From Paramylibacter kogurei (lineage in GTDB: Bacteria > Pseudomonadota > Alphaproteobacteria > Rhodobacterales > Rhodobacteraceae), in assembly GCF_002742285.1 (NCBI RefSeq), contig NZ_MDGM01000003.1, positions 124,001-188,000 on the forward strand: DNA of 64,000 nt. Direction: 5' to 3'. The notes below the pieces were generated by a model, which searched no databases, had not been told where the DNA came from, and saw only the letters and a list, made by a program, of their open reading frames with translations. Positions within the stretch are counted from its first letter, which is position 1. Each line of letters opens with the position of its first letter. A program made the translations under genes and the position numbers. Shown here piece by piece: positions 43,744-53,696 of the stretch.

Positions 43744-44339
43744 CAATGTTCCTTGGTCAGTTGTTCGATCAATTTATGCACCTCTGTGCGCACATGTTCC
43801 AGTGAATTCGTTTCGATGACAAAATCCGCACGTGCACGTTTTTCCGCATCTGGCGTTTGACGAAACAAGATCATTTCAAATGATTTTTCATCCATGCCAC
43901 GTTTCAGAACGCGCGCTCGCTGGTTGTCAGCACTTGTTGACACGACCAATACGCCATCCACCCATTCATCCGCACCGGTTTCAAAGAGCAATGGAATGTC
44001 CACCACAGCGAGCGACAAACTCAATTCGCGACACTTGGTCAAAAACGCATCGCGATGCATGCGAATTGCAGGGTGCACAATTTGTTCAAGTTTTGCGAAT
44101 AACGATTTATCCGCCTGTAACACATTGCGAAGACGGTCGCGGTTTACCCCATCACCATCAACAGCAATGGGTGCAAGTTCAGCAATTTTTTCAATCGTAT
44201 CGGTGTGCGTAGTATATAATTCATGTACCGCGGCATCGGCATCCCAAACGGCGATTTGTGCATCACGAAACATATTCGCCGTGGTGGTTTTTCCCATCCC
44301 AATGGAACCTGTCAAACCCAAAACATAAAGTTTGCTCAT
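43743..44339 (-). CDS. coaE: Dephospho-CoA kinase
   Basis: 198 aa. Last step of coenzyme A synthesis. P-loop GSIGMGKT (11-18), VWDADAAVHELY substrate site and the lid-region RQTPDAEKRARADFVI. Start overlaps the aroE stop by four bases. Confidence 0.95.
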   Translation of the reverse strand: MSKLYVLGLTGSIGMGKTTTANMFRDAQIAVWDADAAVHELYTTHTDTIEKIAELAPIAVDGDGVNRDRLRNVLQADKSLFAKLEQIVHPAIRMHRDAFLTKCRELSLSLAVVDIPLLFETGADEWVDGVLVVSTSADNQRARVLKRGMDEKSFEMILFRQTPDAEKRARADFVIETNSLEHVRTEVHKLIEQLTKEH

Positions 44340-45157
44340 AATGCTTCCAATACACGTTCGCGCAAAATTTCATCGACAACGGGGCGCGTTCCAAACCATT
44401 GCTCAAAACCGGGAACGGCTTGGTGCAAAAGCATTCCCAAACCATCAACCGTTGCGCAACCCTTTTGCGCTGCGTTTTTCAATAGATCCGTTTCAAGCGG
44501 GTTATAAACGATATCGGTGACCAGAATTGACGGGTTTAAGTTTTCACATGAAAATTCCAATGGATCACAACCCAACATGCCAAGTGATGTGGTATTCACA
44601 ATTGTTGAAACCGCACCTGATGCAGGCACCGCATCCACCCAATTGGCAACAACAACACGCCGACCAAAATGTGTGGCCAAGTTTTCGGCCCGTGCACGTG
44701 TGCGATTCACCAAAATTAATTCAGGAACACCTGCATCAATCAGCGCCGATATAACAGCGCGTGCAGCACCCCCCGCACCCAATACCAATGCTGGCCCGGC
44801 ACCCACATTCCAATCTGGTGCACGTTGGATAACATTATTTAAAAACCCTTCGCCATCGGTGTTATCGGCATGAATTTCGCCATCTTTGAAAACCAAGGTA
44901 TTTGCCGCACCAATCATTTTCGCACGATCCGAACTATGATCCGCCAGTGACAAGGCCGCCTCTTTGTGTGGGGCGGTGACATTCACACCCGCATACCCAT
45001 CATCGCGCAATTTTTTCACGCCATCGTCAAATTCATCAACAGAAAATGCGATTTTTTCATAGCTTCCTTTGATGCCGTATTTGTTTAACCAATACCCATG
45101 AATGATTGGCGATTTGCTCTGTGAAATCGGCCAACCAATAACGCCCGCTTTGATCAT
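44336..45157 (-). CDS. aroE: Shikimate dehydrogenase
   Basis: 273 aa. NADPH-dependent reduction of 3-dehydroshikimate. Substrate site SQSKSPIIHG, catalytic region NVTAPHKEAAL and NTDGEGF, Rossmann motif VLGAGGAARAVISAL with NRTRARAE for NADP. Overlaps maf and coaE by four bases at each end. Confidence 0.95.
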   Translation of the reverse strand: MIKAGVIGWPISQSKSPIIHGYWLNKYGIKGSYEKIAFSVDEFDDGVKKLRDDGYAGVNVTAPHKEAALSLADHSSDRAKMIGAANTLVFKDGEIHADNTDGEGFLNNVIQRAPDWNVGAGPALVLGAGGAARAVISALIDAGVPELILVNRTRARAENLATHFGRRVVVANWVDAVPASGAVSTIVNTTSLGMLGCDPLEFSCENLNPSILVTDIVYNPLETDLLKNAAQKGCATVDGLGMLLHQAVPGFEQWFGTRPVVDEILRERVLEAL

Positions 45158-45753
45158 GTTTCAATCACTCCTCTCGTGCGCAGAAAATCGACAACCTCTA
45201 ACAATGGGAAACCAAGCACGGTGAAATAGTCCCCTTGAATGCGTGAGAAAAGCTGTACCCCCTCTGATTCAAGAAAATAGCATCCCACCGATTGCAACAA
45301 ATCCGTTCCACCGCGTTCAAGATAGCCATCCAAAAATTCATCCGAAAAATCGCGCATAAAAAGTTGTGCACGACCAATGGTGCGCCACACTGGTTTCCCA
45401 TTTTCAAAAATGACTGCTGCGGATAATAATTGATGTGGCTTACCACGAAGAGCCAACAGCTTATCTCGTGCGCCATCCATGGTGTTAGCCTTATCATAAA
45501 TCTGTTTTTCACAGACCAATATCTGATCAGATCCAATCACCAAACCAGATGGATTTTTTCCAACCACACGTAATGCTTTGTACTCTGCGAGCGCATCGAC
45601 AATATCATTTGGTTTTGCACCCTCGGCCAACAAAGATGCCTTTATTGCGGCTTCGTCAATTTTTGCAGGAATGACATCGCACACAACGCCAGCAGATCGC
45701 AAAAGATCAGCACGTGTTTTAGAGCCAGATGCCAGAATAACGTTATGTTTCAT
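45154..45753 (-). CDS. maf: Maf family nucleotide pyrophosphatase
   Basis: 199 aa from ATG 45753; a TTG seven codons earlier would begin before the family N-terminus. Motifs ILASGSKTRADLL, KIDE, EYKALRV and GSDQILVCE are complete. Hydrolyses modified or canonical nucleoside triphosphates and is linked to septation arrest. Operon leader nearest the predicted origin. Confidence 0.92.
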   Translation of the reverse strand: MKHNVILASGSKTRADLLRSAGVVCDVIPAKIDEAAIKASLLAEGAKPNDIVDALAEYKALRVVGKNPSGLVIGSDQILVCEKQIYDKANTMDGARDKLLALRGKPHQLLSAAVIFENGKPVWRTIGRAQLFMRDFSDEFLDGYLERGGTDLLQSVGCYFLESEGVQLFSRIQGDYFTVLGFPLLEVVDFLRTRGVIET

Positions 45754-45796
45754 GGCGCTGTTATAGACAGGCAACGCACCAAGATGAAGTGGCGTT

Positions 45797-45820
45797 TTAT
45801 CCTCAGATCGCTGTGGATAA
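45797..45820. promoter_or_regulatory. DnaA box pair
   Basis: TTATCCTCA (45797-45805, one mismatch) and TGTGGATAA (45812-45820, exact on the other strand), facing each other. Confidence 0.7.
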
Positions 45821-45978
45821 AACGTGTATTAATTTAGAGTTTAATTTGAACAACGGGAATAGAATGGCTTGATTCAAAACTGTTCACGAACTGTTACCCA
45901 AAATTCATAATTCTACACACAGTGAATAACGTTGAACTGATTGAATATGTTTTGTGTGAGCAAAGAAATTTTGAAAGT

Positions 45979-45998
45979 TTATCCAAAAGTTATCCACA
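45979..45998 (+). promoter_or_regulatory. Tandem DnaA boxes
   Basis: TTATCCAAA (45979-45987) followed after two bases by the exact box TTATCCACA (45990-45998), same orientation. Confidence 0.75.
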
Positions 45999-46034
45999 GA
46001 ATTGTTAAGTGGTTTGACCGTTGAAAATTTGGTC

Positions 46035-46073
46035 TTTTGGATATTTATACAAAATGGAGACTAAGATTTAGTC
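46035..46073 (+). repeat. 39-base dispersed repeat, copy A (in oriC)
   Basis: Matches 61528-61566 at 33 of 39 positions, with unbroken runs of 12 and 13 bases. It ends in a perfect hairpin GACTAA-GAT-TTAGTC (46059-46073). Confidence 0.8.
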
Positions 46074-46108
46074 ACATTATAGCCGTTTAAAAAATATGTG
46101 AGCAATTC

Positions 46109-46117
46109 TGTGAATAA
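46109..46117 (-). promoter_or_regulatory. DnaA box
   Basis: TGTGAATAA on the plus strand, i.e. TTATTCACA, an exact match to the TTATNCACA consensus. Confidence 0.65.
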
Positions 46118-46223
46118 AGTTTGATCCACGATATTCATAGGTATCTACATAAACAACAATCTTTCTTTCTTTCTTATTTATTATAGATAGGAAGAAACGA
46201 TCCTTTTAATCTGGAACCCCAAT

Positions 46224-46673
46224 ATGGATATTCTTTCATCACTTTATCCTTGGATAAAATCATTGCATGTCATTGCAGTGATTTCCTGGATGGCTGGGAT
46301 GCTCTACTTACCACGCCTATTTGTTTATCACGTTGAAACAGATCCAAAGCATATCAATTTTGATGAAACGCTGGTGCGCTGGGAATATTTATTGATGAAA
46401 CGTATTATAAATCCCGCCATGGCGGTCACGTGGATTTGTGGGATATTGATGCTTGTCACCCCTGGAATCATAGATTGGGGACAGGGGTGGATTTGGGTTA
46501 AACTGATTTCGGTAATTTTGATGTCTGGTTTTCACGGTTTTCTGAGCAAACAAAGAAAACTGTTGGCGGCAGGTGAACGCCCCTATTCTGGCAAAGCCTA
46601 TCGGATGTTAAACGAGGTGCCGACCGTATTCATGATCATAATTGTGATTATGGTCATCGCGCGCCCATTCTAA
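46224..46673 (+). CDS. hemJ: Protoporphyrinogen oxidase HemJ
   Basis: 149 aa, four membrane segments. HemJ (UPF0093) oxidises protoporphyrinogen IX ahead of HemH. Conserved patterns WIKSLHVIAVISWMAGMLYLPRLFVYH, RWEYLLMKRIINPAM and the closing RMLNEVPTVFMIIIVIMVI. It is the first gene right of the predicted origin, followed by rho. Confidence 0.93.
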   Translation: MDILSSLYPWIKSLHVIAVISWMAGMLYLPRLFVYHVETDPKHINFDETLVRWEYLLMKRIINPAMAVTWICGILMLVTPGIIDWGQGWIWVKLISVILMSGFHGFLSKQRKLLAAGERPYSGKAYRMLNEVPTVFMIIIVIMVIARPF

Positions 46674-46816
46674 TGGTTTGACTCTTCCATGTGAATTCAC
46701 GTATGGATTGGGAAACACGGTTTGGTGTCTCCCACCGCAAATATAAACCGTTCCTCAAAAACGAAATTTTTCCATGTGCTGAAATGGCATGTGATGATCT
46801 GTTTGGAATACAATCT

Positions 46817-48088
46817 ATGGAAAACGAAAAAATTAATTTGTCAGAGCTTAAGGCGTTGTCTGCGGCAAATCTGTTAAAACAAGCAGAAGAGCTGGAAATT
46901 GAAAACGCAAGCACGATGCGCAAAGGCGAAATGATGTTCGCCATTCTGAAAGAAATGTCAGAAGAAGGCGCAGAGGTTTCAGGCGACGGTGTTTTAGAAG
47001 TGATGCAAGACGGGTTTGGTTTTTTGCGTTCACCACAGGCGAACTATCTCGCAGGACCAGAGGATATTTATGTATCCCCTGAAATGATCCGTAGCCATTC
47101 ATTGCGTACAGGTGACACTGTTGAAGGTTGGATCAGTTCACCCAAAGATGCCGAACGTTACTTTGCGATGACAAAGGTAACGTCGATCAATTTCTCCGAT
47201 CCAGAAGAAGTGAAACACAAAGTTCACTTTGACAACCTGACACCGCTTTATCCTGATGAACGCCTGAAAATGGAAATCGAAGATCCCACGATCAAGGATA
47301 AATCAGCACGCGTGATTGATCTGGTATCACCAATTGGTAAAGGTCAGCGTTCGCTGATTGTTGCACCACCGCGCACTGGTAAAACGGTTATCTTGCAAAA
47401 TATCGCCGCAAGCATCGAAAAGAACCACCCTGAATGCTATCTGATTGTTTTGCTGATCGACGAGCGGCCAGAAGAAGTGACCGACATGCAGCGTTCTGTG
47501 AAGGGCGAGGTTGTATCATCCACATTTGATGAACCAGCAACGCGCCACGTGGCCGTTTCCGAAATGGTGATCGAAAAGGCAAAGCGTTTGGTCGAACATA
47601 AACGCGATGTTGTGATCTTGCTTGATTCCATCACCCGTTTGGGCCGTGCGTTTAATACTGTGGTGCCATCATCGGGCAAGGTTTTGACCGGTGGTGTGGA
47701 CGCCAATGCATTGCAACGCCCAAAACGTTTCTTTGGTGCGGCACGTAACATCGAAGAAGGCGGTTCGCTCACAATCATCGCCACCGCATTGATCGACACA
47801 GGTTCGCGCATGGACGAAGTTATCTTTGAGGAATTCAAAGGGACTGGTAACTCTGAAATCGTTCTGGATCGTAAGATTGCAGATAAGCGCGTGTTCCCAG
47901 CGATTGATATTCTGAAATCTGGTACACGGAAAGAGGACCTGTTGGTTGATCCTGCCGATCTGGCCAAAACCTTCGTTCTCCGTCGTATTCTGAACCCAAT
48001 GGGCACAACAGATGCGATTGAATTCTTGCTTGGTAAGTTGAAACAAACAAAATCCAACAGCGAATTTTTCGACTCTATGAATACATAA
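46817..48088 (+). CDS. rho: Transcription termination factor Rho
   Basis: 423 aa from ATG 46817; [20 protein letters not shown] is the normal alphaproteobacterial start, and a 42-codon in-frame extension (GTG 46691) is not family-like. RNA-binding OB domain ([15 protein letters not shown]), Walker A APPRTGKT, and the R-loop [20 protein letters not shown]. Hexameric helicase releasing transcripts. Confidence 0.95.
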
Positions 48089-49419: not shown

Positions 49420-49435
49420 TGTTTCACGTGAAACA
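49420..49435. promoter_or_regulatory. parS site 1
   Basis: Perfect 16-bp palindrome TGTTTCACGTGAAACA in the mnmE-mnmG gap, 7 bases after the mnmE stop; flanking TT/AA extend the symmetry. Binding site for ParB. Confidence 0.92.
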
Positions 49436-49499
49436 ATTTTCACCCCTTCCCTTGCTATCCTGATTCGACGTATAGACGAGGCAACCACAACAATAGGAT

Positions 49500-49515
49500 T
49501 GTTTCACGTGAAACA
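49500..49515. promoter_or_regulatory. parS site 2
   Basis: A second perfect TGTTTCACGTGAAACA, 80 bases from the first. It overlaps the mnmG initiation region, and the proposed GTG start (49508) lies at its centre. Confidence 0.92.
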
Positions 49516-51373
49516 TTTTGATGTCATCGTTATCGGAGGCGGTCACGCAGGTGCAGATGCTGCGCAGGCCGCATGGCGAAGCGGTGCGCGGACGGCACTT
49601 ATCACGCATCGCTTTGACCGCATTGGCGAAATGTCTTGTAACCCGGCGATCGGCGGATTGGGTAAAGGTCATTTGGTGCGCGAAATTGATGCGCTAGATG
49701 GCGTTATGGGGCGCGTCGCGGATCAGGCGGGAATTCAGTTTCGCCTGTTAAATCGCCGCAAGGGCCCTGCTGTTCAGGGTCCGCGAACGCAGGCAGATCG
49801 TGCACTTTACCGTGCCGCGATGCAGAAAGAATTCGTTCATCGCGAAGGTTTAGATGTTATCGAGGCCGAAGTCGCCGATTTGATCATGGAATCTAACACC
49901 TGTAAGGGTGTTATTCTGCGTGATGGGACCCAAATCAACGCCCAAGCCGTTGTTTTAACAACAGGTACGTTTTTGCGTGGGTTGATTCATATCGGTGATG
50001 TAAGCCATTCTGGCGGTCGCATGGGTGATGATGCGTCCATTAAACTTGCGGAGCGGATGGATAGTTTCAATCTTCCTATGGGGCGATTGAAAACCGGCAC
50101 ACCGCCGCGTTTGGATGGGCGAACCATTAATTGGGATATTTTGGAAACCCAAGGACCGGACGAAGATCCGGCGCTATTCTCGTTTTTGGCGAAAAAGGGT
50201 GAACACCCCGCGCAAATTTCATGCGGTATTACGCATACAAACGCCAAGACTCACGCGATTATTGAAAAAAACCTGTCACGCAGCGCGATGTATGGGGGGC
50301 ATATTGATGGCGTTGGTCCGCGTTATTGCCCATCAATCGAAGATAAAATTGTCCGCTTTGCTGATAAAGATAGCCATCAGGTGTTTTTGGAGCCAGAAGG
50401 CTTGAACGATCACACGGTTTACCCAAACGGAATTTCAACCAGCCTGCCCGAAGATGTACAGCGTGATTACGTTCATTCGATGGTTGGGTTGGAAAGTGTG
50501 ACGATCCTTCAACCTGGATATGCTATCGAATATGATTATGTCGATCCCCGCGCTCTTCGCCCAACATTGGAACTAAAAGACGTTTCAGGTCTATATCTAG
50601 CGGGTCAAATCAACGGAACCACAGGATATGAGGAAGCAGCGGCTCAAGGTTTGGTTGCTGGATTAAACGCGGCCCGCCGCGCACAAGGTTTGGAATCCGT
50701 AATCTTTAGCCGAGCAGAAAGCTATATCGGGGTGATGATTGACGATCTGACGACGCGCGGTGTGTCTGAACCATATCGTATGTTTACGAGCCGGGCGGAA
50801 TATCGTTTGAGTTTGCGTGCAGATAACGCGGATCAGCGATTAACGCCGATTGGGATCGAGCTTGGCTGTGTTTCTGAAACGCGTAAAGCCGCCTTTGATT
50901 CAAAGATGGACAAATTATCAAACGCCAAAGAGCTGTTGGGCTCTTGCGTGATGACGCCTACAGAGGCCAAGAAAAATGGCATTGCGATTAATCAGGACGG
51001 CATTCGTCGAAATGGTAATGATTTCCTTGCTTACAAAGATGTAACGCTGCAATCCTTGTCCAAGGTTTGGCCAGAACTTGCAAAAATTGATCATGATATT
51101 GCGGTTCAAGTGGAGCGTGACGCAATATATGCCCAATATATTGATCGCCAAAAGGCGGATGTTGCCGCCCTGCGCAAGGATGAAAATATGGCGATTCCTG
51201 ATAAGTTTGAATATTCAGGCATTGCCGGATTGTCGATAGAGTTGCAAACCAAACTTTCAAATGTGCGCCCCACTACGATTGGCCAAGCTGGGCGTATTGA
51301 TGGCATGACGCCAGCTGCGCTTGTTTTGATCCTTGCACGTTTGCGCCGAGGAAATCTGGAGAAGCGTGCATGA
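49508..51373 (+). CDS. mnmG: tRNA uridine-5-carboxymethylaminomethyl modification enzyme MnmG
   Basis: 621 aa from GTG 49508, which has AGGA (49495-49498) 9 bases upstream; the TTG at 49499 used in longer annotations directly abuts that site. FAD-binding motif [14 protein letters not shown], substrate region [18 protein letters not shown] loop [13 protein letters not shown], and the C-terminal helical MnmE-binding part. The start codon sits inside a parS site. The stop overlaps rsmG (ATGA). Confidence 0.94.
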
Positions 51374-52002
51374 GCGAAGCAGATGCACAAGCACAATTGG
51401 TATCCCTTACCAATGTTTCACGTGAAACAATGGAAAAATTGGAAACCTATGCTGCATTGCTTGAAAAATGGAACCCGACAATCAACTTGGTTTCCAAAAC
51501 AACGCTCGATGAAAAATGGCAGCGACACTTTTTGGACTCAGCACAAATATGGCTCCATGTGCCCGAAACCACAACATCTTGGGTTGATATCGGATCAGGT
51601 GCGGGATTTCCCGGTTTGGTTCTGGCCATTATCGCGCATGAAAAGCGACCCGATTTAAATATCACATTGGTGGAAAGCGATGCACGTAAATGTGCATTTC
51701 TGCGCAACACAGCCAGAGCGGTGGGAGTGAATGTGCAAATATTGACGCAGCGCATTGAAACAATCGAAAACCAAAAATTTGACGTGGTATCGGCGCGTGC
51801 TCTGGCTTCTATTTCCCAGCTTTTGACCTTTTGCGATAAAATCTTAGCTTCAAACGGTAATTGTTTGTTTTTGAAAGGTCAGGGCTGTGATAGAGAATTG
51901 GAAGAGGCACAGCAGAGTCATTCATTCACTGCTGAGACTTTTCAAAGCGTGACCCAACAAGAGGCACGGATCGTCAAAATTACAGGGATTGCCCAAAAAT
52001 GA
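51370..52002 (+). CDS. rsmG: 16S rRNA m7G527 methyltransferase RsmG
   Basis: 210 aa. SAM motif [17 protein letters not shown] and [19 protein letters not shown]. Codons 15-20 (NVSRET) encode a parS site, a known arrangement in several lineages. Four-base overlaps with mnmG and parA. Confidence 0.94.
51414..51429. promoter_or_regulatory. parS site 3, inside rsmG
   Basis: Third perfect TGTTTCACGTGAAACA, coding for residues 15-20 of RsmG. Confidence 0.92.
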
Positions 52003-52769
52003 AGATTATTTCTGTCGCAAACCAAAAAGGTGGCGTGGGAAAAACCACTACCACTATCAATCTTGCCGTCGCATTGGCTGATTTGGGGAAAAAGGTTCTT
52101 ATTCTTGATCTTGATCCGCAAGGTAACGCATCGACCGGTTTGGGGCATTTGGCGCCTGATCGTAAATTGACGCTGTATGATGTGTTGGTGGATGGCGAGC
52201 CGCTTTCAAAAGCGACGGTGATGACACAGGTGAACAACCTGTGTTTGGTGCCATCGACCACTGATTTAAGCTCTGCCGATATCGAAATGATCGAGGACAA
52301 GGCGCGTGTTATGCGTTTGAAAAAAGCGTTACAGGACCCAATCCTTGCCAAAGAAAACTTTGATTATGTTTTCATCGATTGCCCTCCGTCATTATCGTTG
52401 CTGACGGTAAATGCGTTTGTGGCCAGTGATACGGTCTTGGTGCCGCTGCAATCCGAATTTTTCGCATTGGAAGGGTTGTCTCAGCTATTGTTAACAATCA
52501 AAGATGTGCGCGAAAGCCTTGGATCAACCTTGCGGGTTGAGGGTGTTTTGCTGACAATGTTTGATCGTCGTAACAAGCTTTCGCAGCAGGTTGAAAAAGA
52601 TGCGCGCGAAAATCTTGGCGGTTTGGTTTACGAGGCAATCATCCCAAGAAATGTTCGCATTTCAGAAGCGCCCTCTTATGGTCAGGCGGCGGTTCATTAT
52701 GATCAGTATGGAAAAGGTGCGCGTGCATATGTTGCGCTGGCACATGAGTTTTTAGCAGGGCAAAATTAG
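51999..52769 (+). CDS. parA: Chromosome partitioning ATPase ParA
   Basis: 256 aa. Deviant Walker A KGGVGKTT (10-17), Walker A' DLDPQGNAS, and Walker B YVFIDCPPSLSLLTVNAF. Moves ParB-parS complexes from near the origin. ATGA overlap with rsmG; parB follows after 27 bases. Confidence 0.96.
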   Translation: MKIISVANQKGGVGKTTTTINLAVALADLGKKVLILDLDPQGNASTGLGHLAPDRKLTLYDVLVDGEPLSKATVMTQVNNLCLVPSTTDLSSADIEMIEDKARVMRLKKALQDPILAKENFDYVFIDCPPSLSLLTVNAFVASDTVLVPLQSEFFALEGLSQLLLTIKDVRESLGSTLRVEGVLLTMFDRRNKLSQQVEKDARENLGGLVYEAIIPRNVRISEAPSYGQAAVHYDQYGKGARAYVALAHEFLAGQN

Positions 52770-52796: not shown

Positions 52797-53696
52797 ATGT
52801 CAAAAAAACCAGAAAAAAGAGGCCTTGGCCGTGGGTTGAGCGCGTTGATGGCTGATATCGAACCTTCGCCAACGCCAAACGCGGGTGAATCAGCGCCGCG
52901 TCGCGAGGGTGAAATGCGTATTGCGATTGAAAAGATTCACCCAAACCCGGACCAGCCACGTCGGGATTTTGATCCAGAAGAGCTGGAAAACCTTGCTGCA
53001 TCAATCGCGGAACGCGGTGTGATCCAACCAATTATTGTGCGCGAAGATCCGTTACACCAGGGCGATTATCAAATCGTTGCGGGCGAGCGTCGTTGGCGTG
53101 CATCGCAAAAAGCGCAGCTTCATGAAATTCCGGTACTTTTGCGCAAGATGTCCGATCGCGAAGTGTTGGAAGTTGCGATTATCGAAAACGTACAGCGTGC
53201 AGATTTAAACGCAGTTGAAGAGGCGCTTGGTTATCGCGCATTGATGGATTCATTTGGCCATACGCAAGAACAGGTATCAACAGCGCTTGGTAAAAGCAGA
53301 AGCCATATCGCAAATGTGTTGCGGTTATTAAACCTGCCTGCGGATGTGCTGACATATTTACGCCAAGGGAAACTTACGGCTGGTCATGCGCGTGCTCTTG
53401 TTGGCAATGATGATGCAAGCGCGATGGCACGCGAAATCATCAAGAAAAGCATGTCCGTGCGTCAGGCCGAAACATTGGCAAAAAACGGGTTGAAGCCGAA
53501 AAACGCGCTTAAACTTTCTGCACCTGCGAAGGATAGCGATACACGCGCACTTGAAACCGATCTGTCGGTGAATCTGGGGATGAAGACATCCATTGATCAT
53601 AAGGCTGGTGGTGAAACGGGTTCGGTGACGATCAGCTATAAAAACCTTGATGAACTAGATCGGTTATGCGCAATTCTTTCGTCCCAGCGGCGTTAA
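52797..53696 (+). CDS. parB: Chromosome partitioning protein ParB
   Basis: 299 aa with GGAAAGG upstream. N-terminal ParA-contact GRGLSALM, CTP-binding GERRWR (96-101) with IENVQRADLNAVEEA, and helix-turn-helix EQVSTALGKSRSHIANVLRLLNLP that reads parS. The C-terminal dimer domain ends GETGSVTISYKNLDELDRL. The three parS sites lie within 3.4 kb upstream. Confidence 0.96.
   Translation: MSKKPEKRGLGRGLSALMADIEPSPTPNAGESAPRREGEMRIAIEKIHPNPDQPRRDFDPEELENLAASIAERGVIQPIIVREDPLHQGDYQIVAGERRWRASQKAQLHEIPVLLRKMSDREVLEVAIIENVQRADLNAVEEALGYRALMDSFGHTQEQVSTALGKSRSHIANVLRLLNLPADVLTYLRQGKLTAGHARALVGNDDASAMAREIIKKSMSVRQAETLAKNGLKPKNALKLSAPAKDSDTRALETDLSVNLGMKTSIDHKAGGETGSVTISYKNLDELDRLCAILSSQRR

Follow-up and report, generated by a model that had tools for sequence, protein, structure and literature searches.

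The gene-free, AT-rich gap between maf and hemJ of Paramylibacter kogurei is, with high confidence, the chromosomal origin of replication, oriC. It occupies positions 45754-46223 of the window, by which we mean the whole 64-kb stretch of DNA analysed, located on a 298-kb contig (C3) of a 2.98-Mb draft genome in 16 contigs. Features of a DnaA-dependent oriC coincide here: a DnaA-box cluster, an AT-rich, meltable neighbour at the minimum of duplex stability, a minus-to-plus switch in GC skew, parS and parAB nearby, sequence conservation, and shared gene order. The original prediction, which had replication start at this gap, is supported by skew, box conservation, neighbouring genes, and parS, and we infer DnaA binding, melting, and initiation itself at this site.

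The gap and its flanking genes

The predicted 470-base gene-free, AT-rich gap was confirmed, with maf and hemJ as its boundaries and an AT content of 68% compared to ~56% in the surrounding 3.4 kb.

45154..45774, minus strand: maf (Maf-like protein), left boundary; Pfam Maf, E=2e-39, TTG-start ORF
45754..46223, no strand: candidate oriC, AT-rich and without genes, flanked by the divergent maf and hemJ; from ORFs, Pfam, AT content, and boxes
46224..46673, plus strand: hemJ (UPF0093), right boundary; UPF0093 profile, E=8e-56

For maf, the minus strand offers a Met start (MKHNVILASGSK) at 45753 and, in the longest ORF, a TTG start at 45774. Beyond hemJ follow, in this order on the plus strand, rho, mnmE, mnmG, rsmG, parA, and parB, with rho, mnmE, mnmG, rsmG, and parAB all at most 8 kb from the gap; on the maf side, aroE and coaE lie on the minus strand. 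The genes adjoining the gap point away from it in transcription, as is usual for genes next to an origin. Among the neighbours listed beforehand as typical of alphaproteobacterial origins, maf, rho, mnmG, and parAB are indeed near, whereas hemE is located on another contig (C7). An Rfam search of positions 44000-48000 gave no match, and thus no known structured RNA accounts for the gap, in which no terminators were found either. Comparison with plasmid records returned a sole match of 91 bp, which falls where hemJ begins and lies outside the DnaA-box array.

DnaA boxes along the gap are conserved in relatives

All three predicted exact DnaA boxes are present, at 45812 (minus), 45990 (plus), and 46109 (minus). 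One-mismatch boxes were found as well, but with seven instead of three in 45754-46223 (45761+, 45797+, 45911+, 45921-, 45979+, 46045+, and 46068+). Although boxes do lie in the two clusters described earlier (45797-45820 and 45979-45998), the two-cluster picture is incomplete because the boxes, about ten, extend along the entire gap. For comparison, we used 65 maf-hemJ gaps of 294-497 bp, nearly all from Rhodobacterales; the closest named relatives by HemJ identity are Amylibacter ulvae (93%), an uncultured Amylibacter MAG (88%), and A. marinus (86%), which places the host in Rhodobacterales.

45797..45805, plus strand: DnaA box with one mismatch, TTATCCTCA; inverted-repeat partner of the 45812 box
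45812..45820, minus strand: exact DnaA box, TTATCCACA; aligned position with a box of at most one mismatch in 18/65 relatives
45911..45929, no single strand: facing pair of one-mismatch DnaA boxes, 45911 plus (TTCTACACA) and 45921 minus (TTATTCACT); 11-14/65 relatives box-bearing there
45979..45998, plus strand: tandem DnaA boxes, TTATCCAAA (45979, one mismatch) and TTATCCACA (45990, exact)
46045..46053, plus strand: DnaA box with one mismatch, TTATACAAA
46068..46076, plus strand: DnaA box with one mismatch, TTAGTCACA; 13/65 relatives
46097..46117, minus strand: two DnaA box positions, 46097, degenerate here (20/65 relatives), and 46109, exact, TTATTCACA
46122..46139, plus strand: box pair beside the predicted unwinding element, TGATCCACG followed by degenerate ATATTCATA; from the alignment

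The stretch 45775-46223 holds three exact boxes and nine in total at no more than one mismatch, compared to 0.05 and 0.80, respectively, in 1000 dinucleotide shuffles of the same stretch (0/1000 each). Exact boxes are not enriched over the whole window (4 vs 2.5 expected), and three of the four fall inside the gap. No second cluster of this kind occurs in the 64 kb, where the runner-up 450-bp stretch has three sites, and the parts of the contig sampled beyond it are likewise without another box cluster of this size. Genome-wide, no other two of the 38 TTATCCACA sites (complete list) are at most 500 bp apart, and no other three matches to the exact-box consensus TTATNCACA fall within 500 bp among those listed (100 of 113).

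The same density was seen in the 65 relatives, whose gaps are ~10% higher in AT than their surroundings: boxes at no more than one mismatch amount to 282 compared to 37±5 in shuffles, and 64 of the 65 gaps exceed their own shuffle mean. Many of these boxes share about a dozen aligned columns.

45812 minus, 45823 minus, 45913 plus, 45921 minus, 45953 minus, 45990 plus (38/65): shared box columns, alignment of 65 gaps
46043 plus, 46068 plus, 46097 minus, 46109 minus, 46122 plus (31/65, mostly TAATCCACA), 46131 plus: shared box columns, alignment of 65 gaps

The best conserved box of this gap family is the one at 45990, and the 46122 column reads TAATCCACA or TGATCCACA in 28/65 relatives. Aligning the gap with other Rhodobacterales, the check suggested for it, thus showed that box density and about ten box positions are kept. 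Exact boxes are absent from the gaps of many high-GC relatives, a point against the oriC reading.

A candidate unwinding site on the hemJ side

Whether taken over 50, 80, or 100 bp, the weakest duplex of the 64 kb falls inside 46086-46209, on the hemJ side of the gap.

46130..46209, no strand: predicted DNA unwinding element; from the weakest 80-bp duplex in the 64-kb window and from conservation

This element contains a CTACATAAACAACAATC triplet stretch together with the CTTT tract and the run reported previously, which we located at ~46161-46187 as a CTTTCTTTCTTTC tract and TTATTTATTATAG. Among close relatives, 46105-46195 is the best conserved stretch, with a box pair, a short spacer, CTAC..., CATCAT- or CAACAA-type triplets, the CTTT tract, and ATTTATTAT in this order. 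The conserved block looks like an unwinding element and is the best candidate for the unwinding site. A triplet block between box pair and CTTT tract, here at 46122-46190, is kept throughout Alphaproteobacteria next to either hemE or hemJ, for example at loci L109, L256, L268, and L277, and a simple, uncontrolled pattern detected a like block upstream of hemE in about half of 30 loci from other Alphaproteobacteria.

In Bacillus subtilis and broadly, the BUS consists of one or more DnaA boxes plus DnaA-trios (PMC6669920, PMC8287927). The P. kogurei block is similar in having a box pair, a short spacer, and a triplet-like repeat with AT-rich DNA, placed on the strand and side that a BUS would predict. 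In contrast to the BUS, the host window has short NAN runs only, and after the first triplet, which is CTA (3'-GAT-5' on the opposite strand) in 46/58 relatives, many relatives carry T instead of the required A at mid-triplet in that frame. The middle base of the triplet block frequently departs from the DnaA-trio rule. Applying the published BUS rule (three or more 3'-NAN-5' triplets no farther than 16 bp from a DnaA box) returned several short NAN runs in the window, of a kind frequent in shuffles. Across the maf-hemJ gaps, the rule matched in 80% compared to 37% in shuffles, and NAN runs beside hemJ measured 5.2 compared to 3.8±0.1, both for related and hence not independent sequences. A strict DnaA-trio assignment in the window was not adopted, as the runs are short and common in shuffles. 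A looser reading is speculative and in our view rather unlikely: the block beside hemJ or hemE (box pair, spacer, top-strand CTAC...CATCATC, CTTT, ATTTATTAT) might be a class-specific form of the DnaA-trio, in which DnaA reads 3'-GWW-5' (often with T in the middle) and not only 3'-GAT-5', two triplet runs being out of register by one base.

GC skew and parS sites point to the same locus

In the 16-contig draft of the host, GC skew was sampled in stretches of the contig. It is -0.14 over 44-46 kb and +0.07 to +0.11 over 46-54 kb, and 10-kb samples are mostly negative across 160 kb leftward and mostly positive across 110 kb rightward of the gap. The skew turn named as a check thus holds in this contig; it also holds in Pseudohalocynthiibacter (G061), where the sampled skew flips at the gap and the cumulative minimum, with a nearly flat floor, lies there, and to within ~70 kb in HTCC2255. 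Two genomes depart from it, one with a noisy and one with a displaced skew minimum. In the MAG chromosome G022, the skew, too noisy to be relied on by itself, shows a shallow local dip at the gap and a sampled minimum at ~1.2 Mb, ~300 kb off. Skew alternates strongly along this single contig (L125-L144, L165-L184), pointing to many inversions or misassembly. The closed genome G003 reaches its minimum at 3.42 Mb, and the maf-hemJ gap and parS follow ~240 kb to the right.

Also in the host, the parS sites lie beside this locus.

49420..49435 and 49500..49515, no strand: two exact parS sites, TGTTTCACGTGAAACA
51414..51429, no strand: third exact parS site
51999..52769, plus strand: parA
52797..53696, plus strand: parB

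Perfect parS sites number exactly three in the host genome, all of them within 49420-51429 and none elsewhere; they are 3-5 kb from the gap, and parS plus parAB together span distances of 3-8 kb. One site is located between mnmE and mnmG, one at the mnmG start, and one inside the rsmG start. In each of eight other genomes searched (8/8), exact parS sites form one cluster, at ~10 kb or less from hemJ where hemJ is placed on the same contig.

The displaced minimum in G003 raises an alternative, namely that the gap is a DnaA-titration or reactivation locus (datA/DARS-like) and the origin lies elsewhere, for example near dnaA or at a shifted minimum of the G003 type. We consider this very improbable, since exact boxes are absent around the host dnaA (a single full-length gene on C14, whose DNA-binding domain keeps GGRDHTTVIHA) and from up to 20 kb right of the G003 dnaA, and only one exact box was found in the 43 kb around the G003 minimum. 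Moreover, other genomes change the sign of their skew at the gap, and the host and the eight other genomes have a single parS cluster, beside the maf-hemJ locus wherever its position is known. For G003 itself, a large inversion within one replication arm is the likeliest explanation, more so than a moved origin: its dnaA is inverted, its skew minimum is without a box cluster, and no other box cluster in the 403 kb sampled ranks above its maf-hemJ gap. Left of ~201 kb, the skew of G003 is that of the other arm, and this stretch includes dnaA in an orientation opposite to that in G022 and G030. The G003 region concerned runs from 3.42 Mb past the contig start to ~0.20 Mb and was sampled as L188, L192-L202, and L145-L149; hemE of this genome is found at 3.4125 Mb, close to the displaced minimum. 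In the stretches sampled, neither the surroundings of dnaA nor the G003 skew minimum showed a box cluster, and a second origin at either place was therefore rejected.

Probable descent from a hemE-DUF299 origin locus

The experimentally mapped Caulobacter origin lies between hemE and DUF299 (PMC1914354). In Rhodospirillaceae-like outgroups and Sneathiella, the maf-hemJ interval is ~3.4 kb long and contains DUF299 (PF03618), then an AT-rich gap with boxes, hemE (PF01208), and a hemH-like frame; outgroup genes were called with Pfam on L067 and L030 and by eye at the remaining loci. The interval of Falsochrobactrum has a hemE frame without DUF299, and that of genome G033, of the same GTDB family, has DUF299 without hemE. 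Arrangements with DUF299 and hemE are seen at L067, L071, L109, and other outgroup loci, with DUF299 alone at L030, and with hemE alone at L105. As read from gene order, these intermediates document a probable descent of the Rhodobacterales maf-hemJ origin from a hemE-DUF299 origin locus. Because the outgroup interval holds DUF299, an AT-rich box-bearing gap, and hemE as at Cori, the comparison indicates that the Amylibacter maf-origin-hemJ locus is likely the hemE-flanked origin locus of Caulobacter after loss or removal of DUF299 and hemE. DUF299 was not detected in the host genome.

The gap therefore appears to share with Caulobacter crescentus Cori the same neighbourhood by descent (maf-DUF299-origin-hemE-hemH-like-hemJ-rho in outgroup Alphaproteobacteria), as well as weak TGATCCACN/TAATCCACA boxes and an AT-rich block. 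It differs in lacking the flanking hemE and DUF299 of Cori. Regarding two further Cori features, no CtrA sites (TTAA-N7-TTAA) were found in the gap or window, with three loose TTWW-N7-TTWW matches only, and neither of two IHF consensus patterns matches in the gap.

These outgroups also bear on whether the gap merely contains divergent promoters of maf and hemJ-rho, at which DnaA would regulate transcription. Its position between divergent genes and one leftward -10/-35-like site (46209-46180) would suit such a role; however, promoter-like matches are no more numerous than in shuffles, and the AT-rich, box-bearing gap persists in outgroups with hemE instead of hemJ as its neighbour. Nor would a promoter account for the roughly ten boxes, the switch in skew, the clustered parS sites, or the minimum of duplex stability, and we give this explanation hardly any weight compared to an origin.

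Relation to known Rhodobacteraceae origins and proposed mechanism

The Ketogulonicigenium vulgare genome paper states, on the basis of DoriC, that oriC beside maf is conserved across Rhodobacteraceae (PMC4793288), and 101 Rhodobacteraceae origins have been predicted using box, skew, and parAB criteria (PMC6699656). The P. kogurei gap matches these DoriC/Ori-Finder predictions in being next to maf, near parAB, at a local GC minimum, and provided with DnaA boxes, and only the species differs. Because both studies already place or predict oriC in this family, the maf-adjacent location was known and our finding is sound but ordinary. No paper on experimental origin mapping in Rhodobacteraceae was found at the level of titles and abstracts. 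Our alignment of 65 gaps adds to this the location of about ten boxes and of the unwinding block beside hemJ.

At such an origin, DnaA, whose recognition motif GGRDHTT is intact in the host, would load on an array of some ten boxes, strong as well as weak (45797-46139), and the complex beside the box pair at 46122-46139 would melt the adjoining AT-rich element (46130-46209), most likely by DnaA gripping one strand of the triplet and T-rich repeats. DnaB helicase would be loaded next and two forks would depart, one through maf-aroE-coaE and the other through hemJ-rho-mnmE-mnmG, with ParB at the three parS sites 3-5 kb away segregating the duplicated origins.

The location of oriC fixes replication start and orientation for the P. 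kogurei draft genome and provides, for Rhodobacterales origins, conserved boxes mapped to the base along with a probable melting site. With the conserved triplet block, DNA opening by alphaproteobacterial DnaA becomes directly testable on a short fragment.
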